A stretch of DNA of 30,194 nt. It comes from a virus. A program made the position numbers and the translations under genes. The notes under the pieces are model-generated. The model was not told the DNA's origin. It searched no databases and saw only the letters and a list, made by a program, of their open reading frames with translations. Numbering within the stretch: the stretch's first letter is position 1; each line of letters opens with the position of its first letter. Location: positions 1-30,194 of IMG/VR virus record IMGVR_UViG_3300037541_000437; one strand, 5' to 3'. Positions 1-14,613 of the stretch are shown here, one piece after another.

Positions 1-1638
1 GAGAATTTAGATACGAAGCCAACTGATTTTAATGATCTTCACTGTCTTGAGGGGCTTCAGGCCGTTGCTGAATGTTTCATCAAAAAGCCAAAGTCTGAAA
101 ATGGGTATATTCCACTAGGAATAGATGATGCGGGATTCCATTTTTTTAACCAAAAAAATCGCATTGTGGTTAGTTTTCAATCCATATCAGAAAGCAGCCT
201 GTTATCGCTCATGCCGCTGGCATACTGGGAAACGCTGTTTCCAAACGACAAGGGCGGCGTTTGTTGGCTGGCAGCTCGTAGCTATGTTATTGAGCAGGCA
301 AAGAGCGTCGGGCTTTATGATAAAAATTTAATCAGAGGCACTGGGGTCTGGAAAGACAACGGCCGCACTGTTATAAATTTAGGCGATAGGATTGAGGGAG
401 ATATATCCAAGTCGAAATATATTTATATCCAGACTCGCAACTCTTTGAACGGGGTGCACCCGAATCCGTTGACTATAGACGAGGCTAATAACTTGGTGAC
501 GGCCTGCAATTCCCTAAAATGGCTTGATGAAAAGTCTGCCTATTTATTAGCCGGATGGATTGCCATTGCTAGAATTGCGGGGGCGCTCCCGGTTCGTCCG
601 CATATTTGGCTGACTGGCGGAGCCGGGACGGGGAAATCGACTGTCATGGATAACCTGATTCGCCCGGCCCTTGGGGGCGAGCATGGGCGTTTTTACCTAC
701 AGGGCGGATCAACTGAGGCCGGTATCCGGCAGATGATCAAGGCCGATTCCATTCCGATCATCTTTGATGAGTTCGAGACAACGAACGAATCAAGTAAAAA
801 TAGGGTTGAGTCCATTGTCGAACTACTGCGCCAGTCTTGGAGCTACACCCAAGGGCACATCGTCAAAGGGTCGGCCTCCGGGGAGGCGCAGCAATACGCT
901 CTCGGCTTCTCAGCGCTGGTCAGCTCTATTCGTGTCTCTCTTAACAATGACGCCGACAGGAGTCGCTTTAGCGTCTTGGAGCTTGATAAGCATGGCAGCG
1001 ATCAAAAGCAATGGACGGAAGCCCGCTCCCGGATGTTAAAAATGACGGAGGAGTTCGGAGAAAGGCTATTCTCTAGGTCCGTCAAGAATATGGACAGCAT
1101 ATTAAAGAGCTATTCAGTTTTTAAATCTGAATTGGCCAATATCGTCAGCCAGCGATTCGGGCAACAATACGGGATGCTATTGGCGGGATGGTTCTCTCTC
1201 GTTTCGGATGATCCAGTAACTATTGAGCAAGCAAAAAGCATTATCGAGTCCTTTAAGTTCTCAGATGATAAGCAAGAGGCGACAATCACCGACGAGCAAG
1301 AATGCCTTGATCAAATTTTGACCACAAGAATCAGTTTGTCCGTTCAGGATTTGCCGCAATCGACACCGATCCGCCTTGAGAAGTCTATTGGCGAAATTTT
1401 ATCGGATAATGTGAAAGGTGAGCTTGAATCTTTGCAGGCTTATGGTATTTTGAAAGATGACCGATCCATATTCGTCGCAAACTCTCATGCGGCGCTTTAT
1501 AAATTTGTTTTTGAGAAAACCCGATGGTCTGGGTGTTGGGCTAAAACTTTAGCCAGACTGCCCGAATCCGAAAAATCCGCACTCAAATGGATTGCCGGAA
1601 AAACGACCAGATGCGTAAAAATTAAACTCCCAGAATAG
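1..1638 (+). CDS. Phage replicative primase/helicase-type P-loop ATPase, 3' part (5' truncated)
   Basis: The reading frame is open from base 1 to the TAG at 1638, so the window begins inside the gene; a GTG at 166 is in frame but nothing suggests it is the true start. At least 545 residues are present. A Walker A loop, GGAGTGKST, is at 616-642. A Walker B strand, IPIIFDEFE, is at 751-777, with D and E at 766-771. A region ending in LNNDADRSRF (about 934-972) looks like the sensor/arginine segment that closes such ATPase domains. The layout, including a GTGVWKDNGRTVINLGD segment before the ATPase and a WSGCWAK...GKTTRCVKIKL ending, resembles phage DNA primase-helicase proteins (DUF927 or primase/polymerase-helicase type). 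Inferred role: unwinding and priming phage DNA. The family assignment rests on motif reading. The N-terminal primase half, if any, is outside the window. An origin-like repeat region follows directly. Confidence 0.8.
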   Translation, partial: ENLDTKPTDFNDLHCLEGLQAVAECFIKKPKSENGYIPLGIDDAGFHFFNQKNRIVVSFQSISESSLLSLMPLAYWETLFPNDKGGVCWLAARSYVIEQAKSVGLYDKNLIRGTGVWKDNGRTVINLGDRIEGDISKSKYIYIQTRNSLNGVHPNPLTIDEANNLVTACNSLKWLDEKSAYLLAGWIAIARIAGALPVRPHIWLTGGAGTGKSTVMDNLIRPALGGEHGRFYLQGGSTEAGIRQMIKADSIPIIFDEFETTNESSKNRVESIVELLRQSWSYTQGHIVKGSASGEAQQYALGFSALVSSIRVSLNNDADRSRFSVLELDKHGSDQKQWTEARSRMLKMTEEFGERLFSRSVKNMDSILKSYSVFKSELANIVSQRFGQQYGMLLAGWFSLVSDDPVTIEQAKSIIESFKFSDDKQEATITDEQECLDQILTTRISLSVQDLPQSTPIRLEKSIGEILSDNVKGELESLQAYGILKDDRSIFVANSHAALYKFVFEKTRWSGCWAKTLARLPESEKSALKWIAGKTTRCVKIKLPE

Positions 1639-1643
1639 GAAAT

Positions 1644-1856
1644 TGTTAGGAACGTAAGTGAGTGTTAGGCAGCAAACCCTTGCAGCCCAACACTCCTAAC
1701 ATTCTAACATTCCTAACACGGAAAAATATATATATAGAAAAATACACAGAGAGAAATATTTATATATATATATATATTTATGTTAGGAATGTTAGTTATG
1801 TTATAAGTCTTGAGGCTCAAGGGTTTCCGGCCTAACATCGCCTAACATTCCTAACA
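1644..1856. repeat. Iteron-like 9-bp repeat cluster around an AT-rich core; candidate replication origin
   Basis: About eleven copies of TGTTAGGAA or its complement TTCCTAACA, exact or degenerate, lie here. Forward copies: 1644-1652 and 1663-1670 (TGTTAGGC). Reverse copies: 1693-1701 (CTCCTAACA), 1702-1709 (TTCTAACA) and 1710-1718 (exact). A (TA)-rich core follows at about 1724-1780. Forward copies resume at 1781-1789 (exact), 1790-1798 (TGTTAGTTA) and 1799-1807 (degenerate), stepping every 9 bp. Reverse copies end the array at 1829-1837, 1839-1847 and 1848-1856 (exact). Ordered arrays of a short site flanking a meltable AT-rich core are typical of iteron origins, and the gene just upstream is a replicative ATPase. 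The origin role is inference. An operator array or a partition site is the main alternative. Confidence 0.6.
1661..1694. other. Imperfect hairpin inside the repeat cluster
   Basis: AGTGTTAGGC (1661-1670) pairs with GCCCAACACT (1685-1694) with one mismatch. An inner GCAA (1672-1675) pairs with TTGC (1680-1683) around an ACCC loop. It starts 22 bases after the stop of the upstream ATPase gene but has no T-run, so it is a poor intrinsic terminator. It includes one of the 9-bp repeats. It may be a structural element of the putative origin. Confidence 0.5.
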
Positions 1857-2070
1857 CTTTGCAAAAATAATAATCACATAGCGTTTAAAATCGTTTATAG
1901 CGATTCTGAGGGGTCGATTCTGTTGGCGTGTCTTTTAATGGGTTAAGAATTTAAATCAATTCTAGCCGTGGTTCCGCTCGAAATTGGGCGGTTTCGTTGC
2001 GTTCGGTCTGGATAGGACCTTAATAAATGTTTGTGTTTAAAAAATAAGCATAACTTTTTTTGTTGAAATG
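1857..2070. other. Non-coding stretch without a recognised element
   Basis: Together with the repeat cluster this makes a 504-base gap without a gene. It has a CGATTCTG direct repeat (near 1901 and 1914), a short inverted repeat AGAATT...AATTCT (near 1946-1963), and a TGTTGAA at 2061-2067 that partly matches the promoter repeat starting 10 bases further on. No tRNA, stable ncRNA fold or supported ORF was found on either strand. Confidence 0.4.
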
Positions 2071-2114
2071 TGTTGACAAAAATAATCTAATTGCCTATAT
2101 TGATTGTGTTGACG
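2071..2114 (+). promoter_or_regulatory. Consensus sigma70 promoter P1 with TGTTGAC repeat at the start site
   Basis: A perfect TTGACA -35 box (2073-2078), a 17-bp spacer and a TATATT -10 box (2096-2101). The predicted start is near 2108, inside a second copy of the -35 octamer, TGTTGACG (2107-2114). The two octamers are 36 bp apart. Two near-copies of this promoter drive the next two cassettes. The octamer at the start site could be an operator. Confidence 0.85.
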
Positions 2115-2142
2115 AGATAAATAACCAACTAGGAGTTACAAA

Positions 2143-2460
2143 ATGGGTAAAGTATATAGAGCTGGCGTATGTTTAACGAGCATGAAAGATGCACAATTAA
2201 ATGGCATCGTCATTGCTGCGGTTGCAAGGGGCGCAGATTTTTCAGAGATCGAATTTTATGCAGAGGAAAACCGTCTTTATGGATGGCGCAAGGCGGTTGC
2301 TTATGCGGCATCTGCTATTGATCGGATTGAATATATGCTTACTGAAACGACCAGAATTGAACCATCCCCAGAATCTAAAATGTGGTCAAATTTTGAAGGC
2401 GGGCATACCTTTCACAAACGCCCAAACGATGATGAAATAATGGGCATGTTATTCAAATAA
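2143..2460 (+). CDS. Small early-region protein of unknown function (105 aa)
   Basis: Not recognised. The ATG follows an AGGAG (2131-2135) with a 7-base spacer, and the mRNA from promoter P1 would have only about 35 leader bases. The protein is small and soluble. Its N-terminal half is mixed (GKVYRAGVCLTSMKDAQLNG), followed by an alanine-rich helix (GWRKAVAYAASAIDRIEYML) and a charged tail. There is no signal peptide, membrane span or cysteine cluster. It is a single-gene transcription unit: a dedicated strong promoter in front and an intrinsic terminator directly behind. This layout is typical of phage genes expressed early at high level, including host-takeover or anti-defence genes, but the sequence gives no specific function. 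Confidence 0.8.
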   Translation: MGKVYRAGVCLTSMKDAQLNGIVIAAVARGADFSEIEFYAEENRLYGWRKAVAYAASAIDRIEYMLTETTRIEPSPESKMWSNFEGGHTFHKRPNDDEIMGMLFK

Positions 2461-2466
2461 AATATC

Positions 2467-2493
2467 GGGGCTAAATGGCCCCTTATTTTTTTT
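2467..2493 (+). terminator. Intrinsic terminator after the first small gene
   Basis: GGGGC (2467-2471) pairs with GCCCC (2478-2482) around a TAAATG loop, followed by TTATTTTTTTT (2483-2493). It lies 7 bases behind the stop codon and 10 bases before the -35 region of the next promoter. Confidence 0.85.
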
Positions 2494-2502
2494 CTAAAAT
2501 AG

Positions 2503-2547
2503 TGTTGACAAAATAAATCCAATTACCTATATTCATTCCTGTTGACG
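2503..2547 (+). promoter_or_regulatory. Consensus sigma70 promoter P2 with TGTTGAC repeat at the start site
   Basis: TTGACA (2505-2510), a 17-bp spacer and TATATT (2528-2533). TGTTGACG recurs at 2540-2547, 37 bp after the TGTTGACA that contains the -35 box. The sequence is nearly identical to promoters P1 and P3, including the AATT(A/G)C just before the -10 box and the following AACTAGGAG ribosome-binding site. Confidence 0.85.
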
Positions 2548-2576
2548 GGCTAAACAATTAACTAGGAGAAATCAAA

Positions 2577-2909
2577 ATGAACGCAATGGAAATCGCACAA
2601 GCAATCAAGGGCCAAATCAGAACGACAGAACTATGGGCAATCGGGGCTAAAAACTTCTTTGTTATTCCAGCCGGACCACAAGTCTCAGGCGGGCTTAGAT
2701 TTGACGCTAGCCTATATGGTCGCGGGAAGTGCCGTGTAGCAATCGGACTTAATGGCAAAGATCTTTATGATGTTTTAATTTGCACAGGTCGCGGATACAC
2801 CAAGATCCTAGCTGAATTTAAAGACGTATTCTGCGAAGATCTTGAGGCATTTGTTGTCGAGGCGCTGGAAAACAAATTTAAAACAGTAGAAGAAAAAGCA
2901 TTTATCTAA
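2577..2909 (+). CDS. Small early-region protein of unknown function (110 aa)
   Basis: Not recognised. AGGAG (2564-2568) lies 8 bases before the ATG; an in-frame ATG at 2586 is a weaker alternative. The protein is a mixed alpha/beta type: an N-terminal helix (MEIAQAIKGQ), a strand-rich middle with IGAKNFFVIPAG and YGRGKCRVAIG, and a C-terminal acidic helix (CEDLEAFVVEALENKF). There is no membrane span or known catalytic motif. It is the second unit of a repeated promoter-gene-terminator arrangement and shares regulation, but no visible sequence similarity, with its two neighbours. It may be an accessory early gene. Confidence 0.8.
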   Translation: MNAMEIAQAIKGQIRTTELWAIGAKNFFVIPAGPQVSGGLRFDASLYGRGKCRVAIGLNGKDLYDVLICTGRGYTKILAEFKDVFCEDLEAFVVEALENKFKTVEEKAFI

Positions 2910-2915
2910 ACAAAA

Positions 2916-2944
2916 GGGGGCCAGAGATGGCCCCCTATTTTTTT
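2916..2944 (+). terminator. Strong intrinsic terminator after the second small gene
   Basis: GGGGGCC (2916-2922) pairs with GGCCCCC (2929-2935) around an AGAGAT loop, followed by TATTTTTTT to 2944. It resembles the terminator at 2467-2493 in stem sequence and position, so the whole terminator-promoter unit appears duplicated. Confidence 0.9.
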
Positions 2945-2953
2945 CTAAAAATG

Positions 2954-2997
2954 TGTTGACAGAATAAACGTAATTGCTTATATTGATTGTGTTGACG
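2954..2997 (+). promoter_or_regulatory. Consensus sigma70 promoter P3 with TGTTGAC repeat at the start site
   Basis: TTGACA (2956-2961), a 17-bp spacer and TATATT (2979-2984), then TTGATTGTGTTGACG as in P1. TGTTGACG is at 2990-2997, 36 bp after the first octamer copy. It drives the zinc-finger-like gene at 3022 and probably the gene at 3260, since no terminator lies between them. Confidence 0.85.
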
Positions 2998-3021
2998 GGG
3001 AAACTAACTAGGAGAAATAAA

Positions 3022-3231
3022 ATGTGGAAGCCAACAATTAAAGCAACATACAAATGTCAGTCACTCAAGCAAGTAATCAATGGCGCAAAGTGCAACAAAA
3101 AAGCCCCAGACGGGGAAAGATATTGCAATGATTGCTGGAGCAAATTGCAAGAAATAACAGCATCATATGAGCCTAAAGAGATTACAGCAGAGAGTCTCCA
3201 TAAAGCATATTTAGATCGTTGCAACGACTAA
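3022..3231 (+). CDS. Small cysteine-rich, probably zinc-binding protein (69 aa)
   Basis: The start is the ATG at 3022, placed by AGGAG at 3010-3014. An upstream in-frame TTG at 2974 lies inside promoter P3, before its start site, and cannot be used from that transcript. Cysteines at residues 12, 24, 35 and 38 (KCQ, KCNKK, RYCNDCW) give a C-x11-C-x10-C-x2-C pattern that could bind one zinc ion, like small phage zinc-ribbon regulators. A helical, charged C-terminal half follows. No named family is recognised. A nucleic-acid- or protein-binding role is inferred only from the cysteine pattern. Confidence 0.8.
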   Translation: MWKPTIKATYKCQSLKQVINGAKCNKKAPDGERYCNDCWSKLQEITASYEPKEITAESLHKAYLDRCND

Positions 3232-13218: not shown

Positions 13219-14613
13219 ATGTCCGATCTTCTTTTTCAACAGGACGTTGTGCAGTCGTCACCGACTGCCACGTCTTTCCATGATCAATTACCTTTTGAGA
13301 ATATTCTACAAGGTACGTCTCTTGCGTGCGTCGTTGATTTTACACCTCCGACGTTCGCAGGGATCACCTCTTTAACCGTTGAGGCTAGGGGTCAGTTAAG
13401 AGCTAATTGGTCTGCGGCGACCGACGCGACAGCTCCTATCAGGTATCAGGTTTATATCAAGCCAGCGACAGCCACCGGATTATTTTCGGCAGGCAATATC
13501 GTTGGCATTACTTCAAATCTGCAATTAGATATCTTTACTTTACCAGATGGGTCTTTACCCGTTGCCGGTGATGCATACTATGTTGGCGTGAGAGCGTTCG
13601 ACGGCGTAGGTAATTTGGATGGTAATACTGTTAGTTTGAATATCGTATCTCCCGGTCTTGGATCAGGGGCAGAGACTTACGAGTCCAAAGCGTCGTTTGC
13701 AGTCAACGAAAACAACGATCTTCAGGGTACTTTGTGGGTTAATAAAAACGGGCAGTTAATGACTTCGAGTTTAGGCACTGCGAGTTATCAAGTGTATGAC
13801 GATTTAGGGGCGCATGTCCCTACGATGTCCGAAAGCGGCATAGTTGCTGATGCTAACGGTCAATTTAAGATAACTCCAGTTACGTCCGCTCTAATTGATA
13901 ACCTTACTCACTATATTGCCAAGGTAACAGTTATCGCAGACGGCGCCGAAAGATCTTCCTATATACCTTTGGTGCAAGCGGCTCCAGAGTACAATATAAA
14001 TGGACTATTCTTTATTAACGAATCGAATCAGTTTGACGGTTCGTTCTGGGTGATGGCAGATGAAATCGTCAGGACTTCAGGGATTGGCCTTGCGAGCTAT
14101 CAGGTTTACGACTCTGATGGAAGTCCGGTCGTTGGAATGTCTGGCAGTGGTATATCGGCAGATGTAAACGGCGTTTATAAGATATCCGCTGTATCATCTA
14201 CGCTTTTAGCTCAGAATCTAGGATATTCGGTTCGAGTTTCTCTTGTGATAGATGGTTTAACACGAAGCGACATGATACCAGTCGAAGTGAAAAGACTTGA
14301 GTACGAGTGCAAGGGAACTTTCTCAATTAACGCTCTTAATCAATTCCAAGCTACCCTATGGGCGGTTGCCGATGGCGTGGTTAAGACGACAAGCCTTGGT
14401 ACGGCTTCCTATACGGTTTACGACAAGGATGGCGTGGCTGTATCTGGATTGTCTCAAACAGGCATAACCGCCGATGTTAATGGTCGATTCAATACGACTC
14501 CAGTGAGCGCGGCGCTTTTAACAAATTTAACGCATTACACAGTCAAAATAGCGATTACGGTGTCTGGTCTTGAGCGGGTTTCTTATAAAGGATTTACCTT
14601 GTTAGGAAATTAA
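13219..14613 (+). CDS. Ig-like repeat virion protein with an FN3-like domain and three 104-residue repeats
   Basis: 464 residues. After a short N-terminal segment, residues about 42-145 look like a fibronectin type III domain (LTVEARGQLRANWSAATDAT, then GDAYYVGVRAFDGVGN). Three tandem repeats follow, starting at Y154, Y258 and Y362, exactly 104 residues apart. Each has the order N-x-F/L-x-G (e.g. NNDLQGTLWV, NQFDGSFWV, NQFQATLWA), then ASYQVYD (ASYTVYD in repeat 3), then G-I-x-A-D-x-N-G and a closing strand. Such Ig-like stacks occur on phage capsids and tails and may weakly bind glycans or surfaces. AGAGG (13208-13212) precedes the ATG. The repeats differ at many residues, so the duplication is old. 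Confidence 0.78.
   Translation: MSDLLFQQDVVQSSPTATSFHDQLPFENILQGTSLACVVDFTPPTFAGITSLTVEARGQLRANWSAATDATAPIRYQVYIKPATATGLFSAGNIVGITSNLQLDIFTLPDGSLPVAGDAYYVGVRAFDGVGNLDGNTVSLNIVSPGLGSGAETYESKASFAVNENNDLQGTLWVNKNGQLMTSSLGTASYQVYDDLGAHVPTMSESGIVADANGQFKITPVTSALIDNLTHYIAKVTVIADGAERSSYIPLVQAAPEYNINGLFFINESNQFDGSFWVMADEIVRTSGIGLASYQVYDSDGSPVVGMSGSGISADVNGVYKISAVSSTLLAQNLGYSVRVSLVIDGLTRSDMIPVEVKRLEYECKGTFSINALNQFQATLWAVADGVVKTTSLGTASYTVYDKDGVAVSGLSQTGITADVNGRFNTTPVSAALLTNLTHYTVKIAITVSGLERVSYKGFTLLGN
13678..14610 (+). repeat. Three tandem 312-bp coding repeats (104 residues each)
   Basis: Units begin at 13678, 13990 and 14302. They are clear at protein level (NNDLQG/NQFDGS/NQFQAT, ASYQVYD/ASYQVYD/ASYTVYD, ADANGQF/ADVNGVY/ADVNGRF) but diverged at DNA level. 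Confidence 0.85.

Follow-up and report, generated by a model that had tools for sequence, protein, structure and literature searches.

An iteron-like array 3' of a primase-helicase gene is very probably the replication start of a tailed bacterial virus

Results

The DNA analysed here (the window) covers an entire IMG/VR virus record, 30194 bases long, which starts inside a gene. This truncated open reading frame encodes a primase-helicase, of which the C-terminal 545 residues are present, and matches the DNA primase family phrog_35358 (E=3e-132), congruent with an earlier note on the sequence, which had recognised a replicative ATPase directly upstream of the repeats; full-length homologues of approximately 840-970 residues are found in Bdellovibrio, Synechococcus, Serratia, Bordetella, Pseudomonas and other phages. 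The first iteron starts 6 bp past the stop codon and opens a 213 bp array of CCTAACA/TGTTAGG copies, arranged in blocks of alternating orientation (Table 1).

Table 1. Coordinates of the repeat array and of the adjacent primase-helicase gene in the window.
Feature	Position	Strand	Sites or basis
Primase-helicase gene, proposed initiator, 5' part missing	1-1638	+	phrog_35358, Foldseek; Walker-type ATPase and C-terminal DNA-binding domain (predicted)
C-terminal domain (residues 440-545), proposed iteron-binding, winged-helix-like with C-terminal beta hairpin	1318-1635	+	AF2; co-exchange with array
W530 codon, near hairpin tip	1588-1590	+	Covaries with motif
CCTAACA/TGTTAGG array	1644-1856		
Iteron block 1	1644-1669	-	TGTTAGG at 1644, 1663
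Iteron block 2	1686-1718	+	CCTAACA-type at 1686 (CCCAACA), 1695, 1703 (TCTAACA), 1712
AT-rich core, (TA)n, proposed melting site	about 1720-1780	none	Sequence and inverted repeats
Iteron block 3	1781-1805	-	TGTTAGG at 1781, TGTTAGT at 1790, TGTTATA at 1799 (two mismatches)
Iteron block 4	1831-1856	+	CCTAACA at 1831, 1841, 1850

A recount identified 11 sites that differ from the 7-mer core at no more than one position, eight of them exact, and sequence, inverted repeats and site count all place iteron sets on both sides of the AT-rich region. The roughly eleven copies of the earlier note are hence real, and the four exact 9-mers that it had claimed indeed lie inside the array, with a fifth exact copy at 14600. 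Its alternating inverted blocks were also recovered, with small adjustments to the counts: the left reverse block comprises four copies rather than three (1686 being added), and the right forward block reaches three only if the looser TGTTATA at 1799 is counted (two on a strict count). Inside most blocks the steps are 8-10 bp. The dyad layout is borne out by two long imperfect inverted repeats, 1640-1702/1798-1860 at 75% and 1704-1743/1756-1795 at 83%.

The stretch that follows, 2040-3040, contains three small genes (2143, 2577 and about 3022), each preceded by a near-identical leader with a TTGACA-17-TATATT promoter (2073, 2505 and 2956), a second TGTTGACG element and then AACTAGGAG before the ATG. 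With terminators after the first two (2467 and 2915), this looks like a series of repeated stand-alone early-gene cassettes.

The motif is enriched beyond chance. Eight copies of the 7-mer were observed in the array stretch, as compared to at most three of any 7-mer in 2000 dinucleotide shuffles, and 9-mers with up to one mismatch number 15 across the whole window against 7.4 expected, a value reached in 0 of 100 shuffles. Eight of the 11 exact 7-mers of the window fall in the array, with only three more in the other 30 kb. A motif count, suggested earlier as a check, thus reveals a single array and no spread through the rest of this 30194-base fragment. GC skew, proposed for the same purpose, climbs throughout the fragment without a minimum and is uninformative.

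Scanning sequence collections for the exact 15-mer CTAACATTCCTAACA returned 111 contigs, mostly with single matches, a number that is about the chance expectation given the collection size. Real arrays were present in roughly ten of these, of which eight or so are P2-like phages (L007, L011, L029, L065, L070, L077, L110 and L115); here the arrays contain CCTAACATTCCTAACA and often also a GGCGGATTTCTGCGG-type repeat, and sit beside portal/Dam or integrase genes. No relative of the window primase was found in these phages, an empty result of limited weight, and the VapE, DUF3987 and D5_N families were not found in the four longest P2-like records.

We then turned to the primase-helicase itself. 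A Pfam search detected no family above threshold, including no match to the VapE-like domain PF05272, and a PDB sequence search with the protein family returned no match, the solved SaPI Rep included. The AlphaFold2 model is confident (mean pLDDT 85.9), and in this predicted form the best fold matches are replication initiator helicases and primase-helicases: the top PDB match in Foldseek is SCCmec Cch (5dgk, 3.6e-9), with NrS-1 CTR, SaPIbov1 Rep (8tch, E 6e-7) and SaPI5 PriRep1 (7pds/7ola) among the further top matches. Modelled alone, the C-terminal 117 residues reach a pLDDT of 92 and a pTM of 0.83, and the strands of the predicted terminal hairpin span residues 524-531 and 534-542. The isolated C-terminal domain fold has no solved structural match in the PDB (best E 1.2) and two matches among viral models.

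Searches of the viral and genome collections with a single protein recovered no relatives, whereas alignment-led searches did. The comparison covered 153 relatives, taken from phage records, genomes and viral contigs. With an array defined as one 7-mer present at least five times in 300 bp, 81 of the 153 have one immediately 3' of the gene and 27 anywhere else in the locus; several of the latter are low-complexity coding sequence, and the comparison is conservative because elsewhere comprises many more windows. Approximately 70 relatives are without an array 3' of the gene, some of which have one elsewhere (Acjo_20 and MQ-4). The nearest annotated relatives keep the layout with another motif, TGTTACC in phi1422, CCGTTAG in S-H1 and GCTTACA in KLER1-1. 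Overall, the motifs vary widely yet make up a class, and the block order is alike between lineages with the motif changing as a whole in all copies. Looking for the array beside primase genes of related phages, a check suggested in the earlier note, thus recovers its position in these 81 relatives, with many different motifs. In the two relatives named above, clusters of the motif class are located at about -3046 from the primase stop (L123, Acjo_20) and about +1722 (L119, MQ-4), with the motifs TGTAACA and CGGTAAC; perhaps these represent relocated origins.

Next, motif and protein were compared. Motif distance correlates with the distance of the C-terminal approximately 105 residues (Spearman 0.34), and the correlation persists once the helicase domain is controlled for (partial Mantel p=0.001), which is not so for the reverse test (p=0.25). 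Among 511 alignment columns, that of W530 alone stands out (MI z 13.6-14.3, null maximum 6.6), with a score matched by 0 of 300 permutations. In the discovery set of 51 non-redundant relatives, CCTNAC goes with W in nine of nine cases, TCTNAC with Y or H in nine of nine (Y seven, H two), and GTNAC with R or K in 17 of 19 (R 15, K two; the rest one N and one W), with 13 arrays outside these three motif classes. An arginine at this position together with a G among the motif bases is in line with contacts often made between proteins and DNA. Residues reading the middle bases of the motif were also searched for, and nothing clear emerged.

As the motif classes had been chosen after viewing the data, the rule was fixed in advance and then tried on fresh loci. 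Among 35 non-redundant held-out arrays, newly fetched and with motifs called blind, R/K accompanies GTNAC in 15 cases and CTNAC in one, as compared to zero and three for Y (Fisher by hand approximately 0.004); W does not occur in this set, and 12 of the 35 arrays have motifs outside the classes. There are also exceptions: W is found with CCAAACA in L230, with ATTACCC in L160 and with GCGTAAC in L131, and R with several motifs outside the three classes. L131 is closest to the window protein by tree and has W at the same position, and its rule-breaking array is weak.

A tree of 86 rows, for which the helicase columns were used and the C-terminus excluded, implies approximately 13 switches of motif class. 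Of 10 supported independent pairs that differ in motif, about nine have a residue class that follows the motif, and none has one that goes the opposite way (median sign p 0.004); the W versus Y pairs agree in three of three, too few for significance. A natural exchange separates L161 (R, CGTAACA) from L165 (Y, CGTAAGA). Their DNA is 93-100% identical until approximately 300 bp before the stop codon, drops to 37-73% across the last approximately 95 codons and the array, and is back at 90-97% about 300 bp further on, and the same breakpoints recur in three more comparisons between the two groups. At the level of sequence, this swap is natural evidence for the C-terminal domain and the array as a cognate unit.

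A second family, the VapE-type primase-helicases (PF05272), neighbours one independent CCTAACA array, L044. Of 86 assessable VapE-type loci, 72 have an iteron array directly 3' of the gene, and R or K occurs with GTNAC or GTNNACA, Y twice with TCTTAC, and W once with CCTAACA and once with TTGGACA; the automatic alignment was shifted by one to three columns in several rows, which were therefore read by eye, as was the consensus that gave the motif of L588 (Y, TCTTAC). C-terminal profiles of the VapE-type and window families have no detectable homology, and therefore the likeness of the rules is a parallel rather than shown descent. A further compact CCTAACA array, L101:6800-7000, follows a VapE-type protein whose C-terminus differs from the rest and in which the recognition residue is not evident.

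Discussion

Taken together, the repeat array is very probably the replication start of this bacterial virus. The candidate origin beside a replicative ATPase proposed in the earlier note is well supported, with the layout kept in dozens of relatives and the motif confined to the array. That note had left the initiator as unknown and possibly encoded elsewhere, which is not the best reading, for the motif covaries with the C-terminal domain of the adjacent primase-helicase. Because the two covary and are exchanged as one cassette, this protein is the likely initiator, and we consider it highly probable, judging from sequence comparison, that the array is a theta-type origin at which the upstream primase-helicase would act through its C-terminal domain.

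Alternatively, the array may be an operator or partition-like site of a separate DNA-binding protein, a repressor or ParB-like, that lies near the primase through operon layout. Operators and centromeres, too, typically contain inverted and direct repeats, and a consensus promoter-like match, within chance numbers, extends over the right end of the array (1842-1871). We nevertheless regard this as very unlikely, as the place at the 3' end of the gene is kept across many relatives and VapE-type phages, and a third protein would not account for the covariation of the motif with the primase C-terminus or for their joint exchange. Still less likely is an origin bound by host DnaA or another phage initiator, to which the primase is merely recruited. 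Many phage origins rely on a separate initiator, and one had been suggested before, but the array and its surroundings contain no DnaA box (TTWTNCACA), the window as a whole has three (8774, 21905 and 26958), as expected by chance, and the covariation is located in the primase C-terminus. A transcription terminator or RNA structure ending the replication operon has a nearly negligible probability: the inverted repeats could fold in RNA, but no terminator is called inside the array, relatives keep the block order while all motif copies change together as for protein sites, and direct 8-10 bp steps are unneeded for a hairpin.

Returning to the primase-helicase as initiator, we infer a sequence of events by analogy. 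Copies of the protein would bind the CCTAACA iterons via their C-terminal domains, with W530 on the terminal beta hairpin helping to recognise its CC. Through the inverted blocks, two assemblies facing in opposite directions, possibly hexamers as for SaPI Rep, would come to lie on either side of the AT-rich core, which would melt between them. The helicase may then load itself, the same protein prime, and replication start bidirectionally.

More generally, we consider it reasonably probable that tailed phages of several primase-helicase families share an exchangeable specificity cassette, consisting of the C-terminal domain and the array, with the hairpin residue as a readable code (R/K for GTNAC, Y/H for TCTNAC and W for CCTNAC). 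If so, origins would diversify like incompatibility groups, and a phage origin motif would be partly predictable from the protein, and the reverse. Phage origins are seldom annotated, and a rule that links the motif 3' of a gene to its initiator makes them predictable from sequence; the array-after-gene arrangement is common in the tailed phages studied here. The natural swaps of domain and array also offer ready pairs for studying how initiator specificity changes, and suggest selection for origins without cross-reaction.

This kind of system is known from satellites; that it extends across tailed phages appears to be new, as does the rule linking residue and motif. Nothing on the origin of this phage primase or on such a rule was recovered in the literature covered, with subscription papers largely outside its scope, and the novelty is hence provisional.

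Among known systems, a residue-to-iteron-base correspondence has been published for the iteron-related domain of geminivirus Rep (PMC10611410). The correspondence is alike, whereas this is an unrelated rolling-circle Rep of plant viruses that employs an N-terminal domain. The VapE-type proteins have the 3' array and a similar residue rule in common with the window family, while belonging to a different protein family. In SCCmec, Cch is the best fold match to the window protein, and Cch2, through its isolated C-terminal domain, binds direct repeats that lie downstream of the Cch2 gene (PMC7581432); its three short iterons are of another sequence, and SCC elements are chromosomal cassettes, unlike the window.

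Closest are the Rep-ori systems of SaPIs and PICIs (SaPIbov1 Rep, SaPI5 PriRep1 and Gram-negative PICIs), where the origin, like the one proposed in the window, is located directly 3' of the initiator helicase gene. SaPI Rep recognises its downstream iteron origin through the C-terminal domain (PMC7581432), and the PICI origin, directly 3' of rep, consists of two iteron sets around an AT-rich region, the probable melting site, with gene and ori replicating a plasmid (PMC6092414). The predicted fold of the window protein matches SaPIbov1 Rep and PriRep1, with no recognisable sequence relation to solved SaPI Rep; a C-terminal DNA-binding domain is proposed for the window protein as well, and the motif differs. 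SaPIs and PICIs are satellites, whereas the window represents a tailed phage with its own terminase, a portal with Mu F domain and long late-gene open reading frames downstream. The array would work like a SaPI/PICI origin, yet the element is no PICI, because the record is that of a tailed phage.
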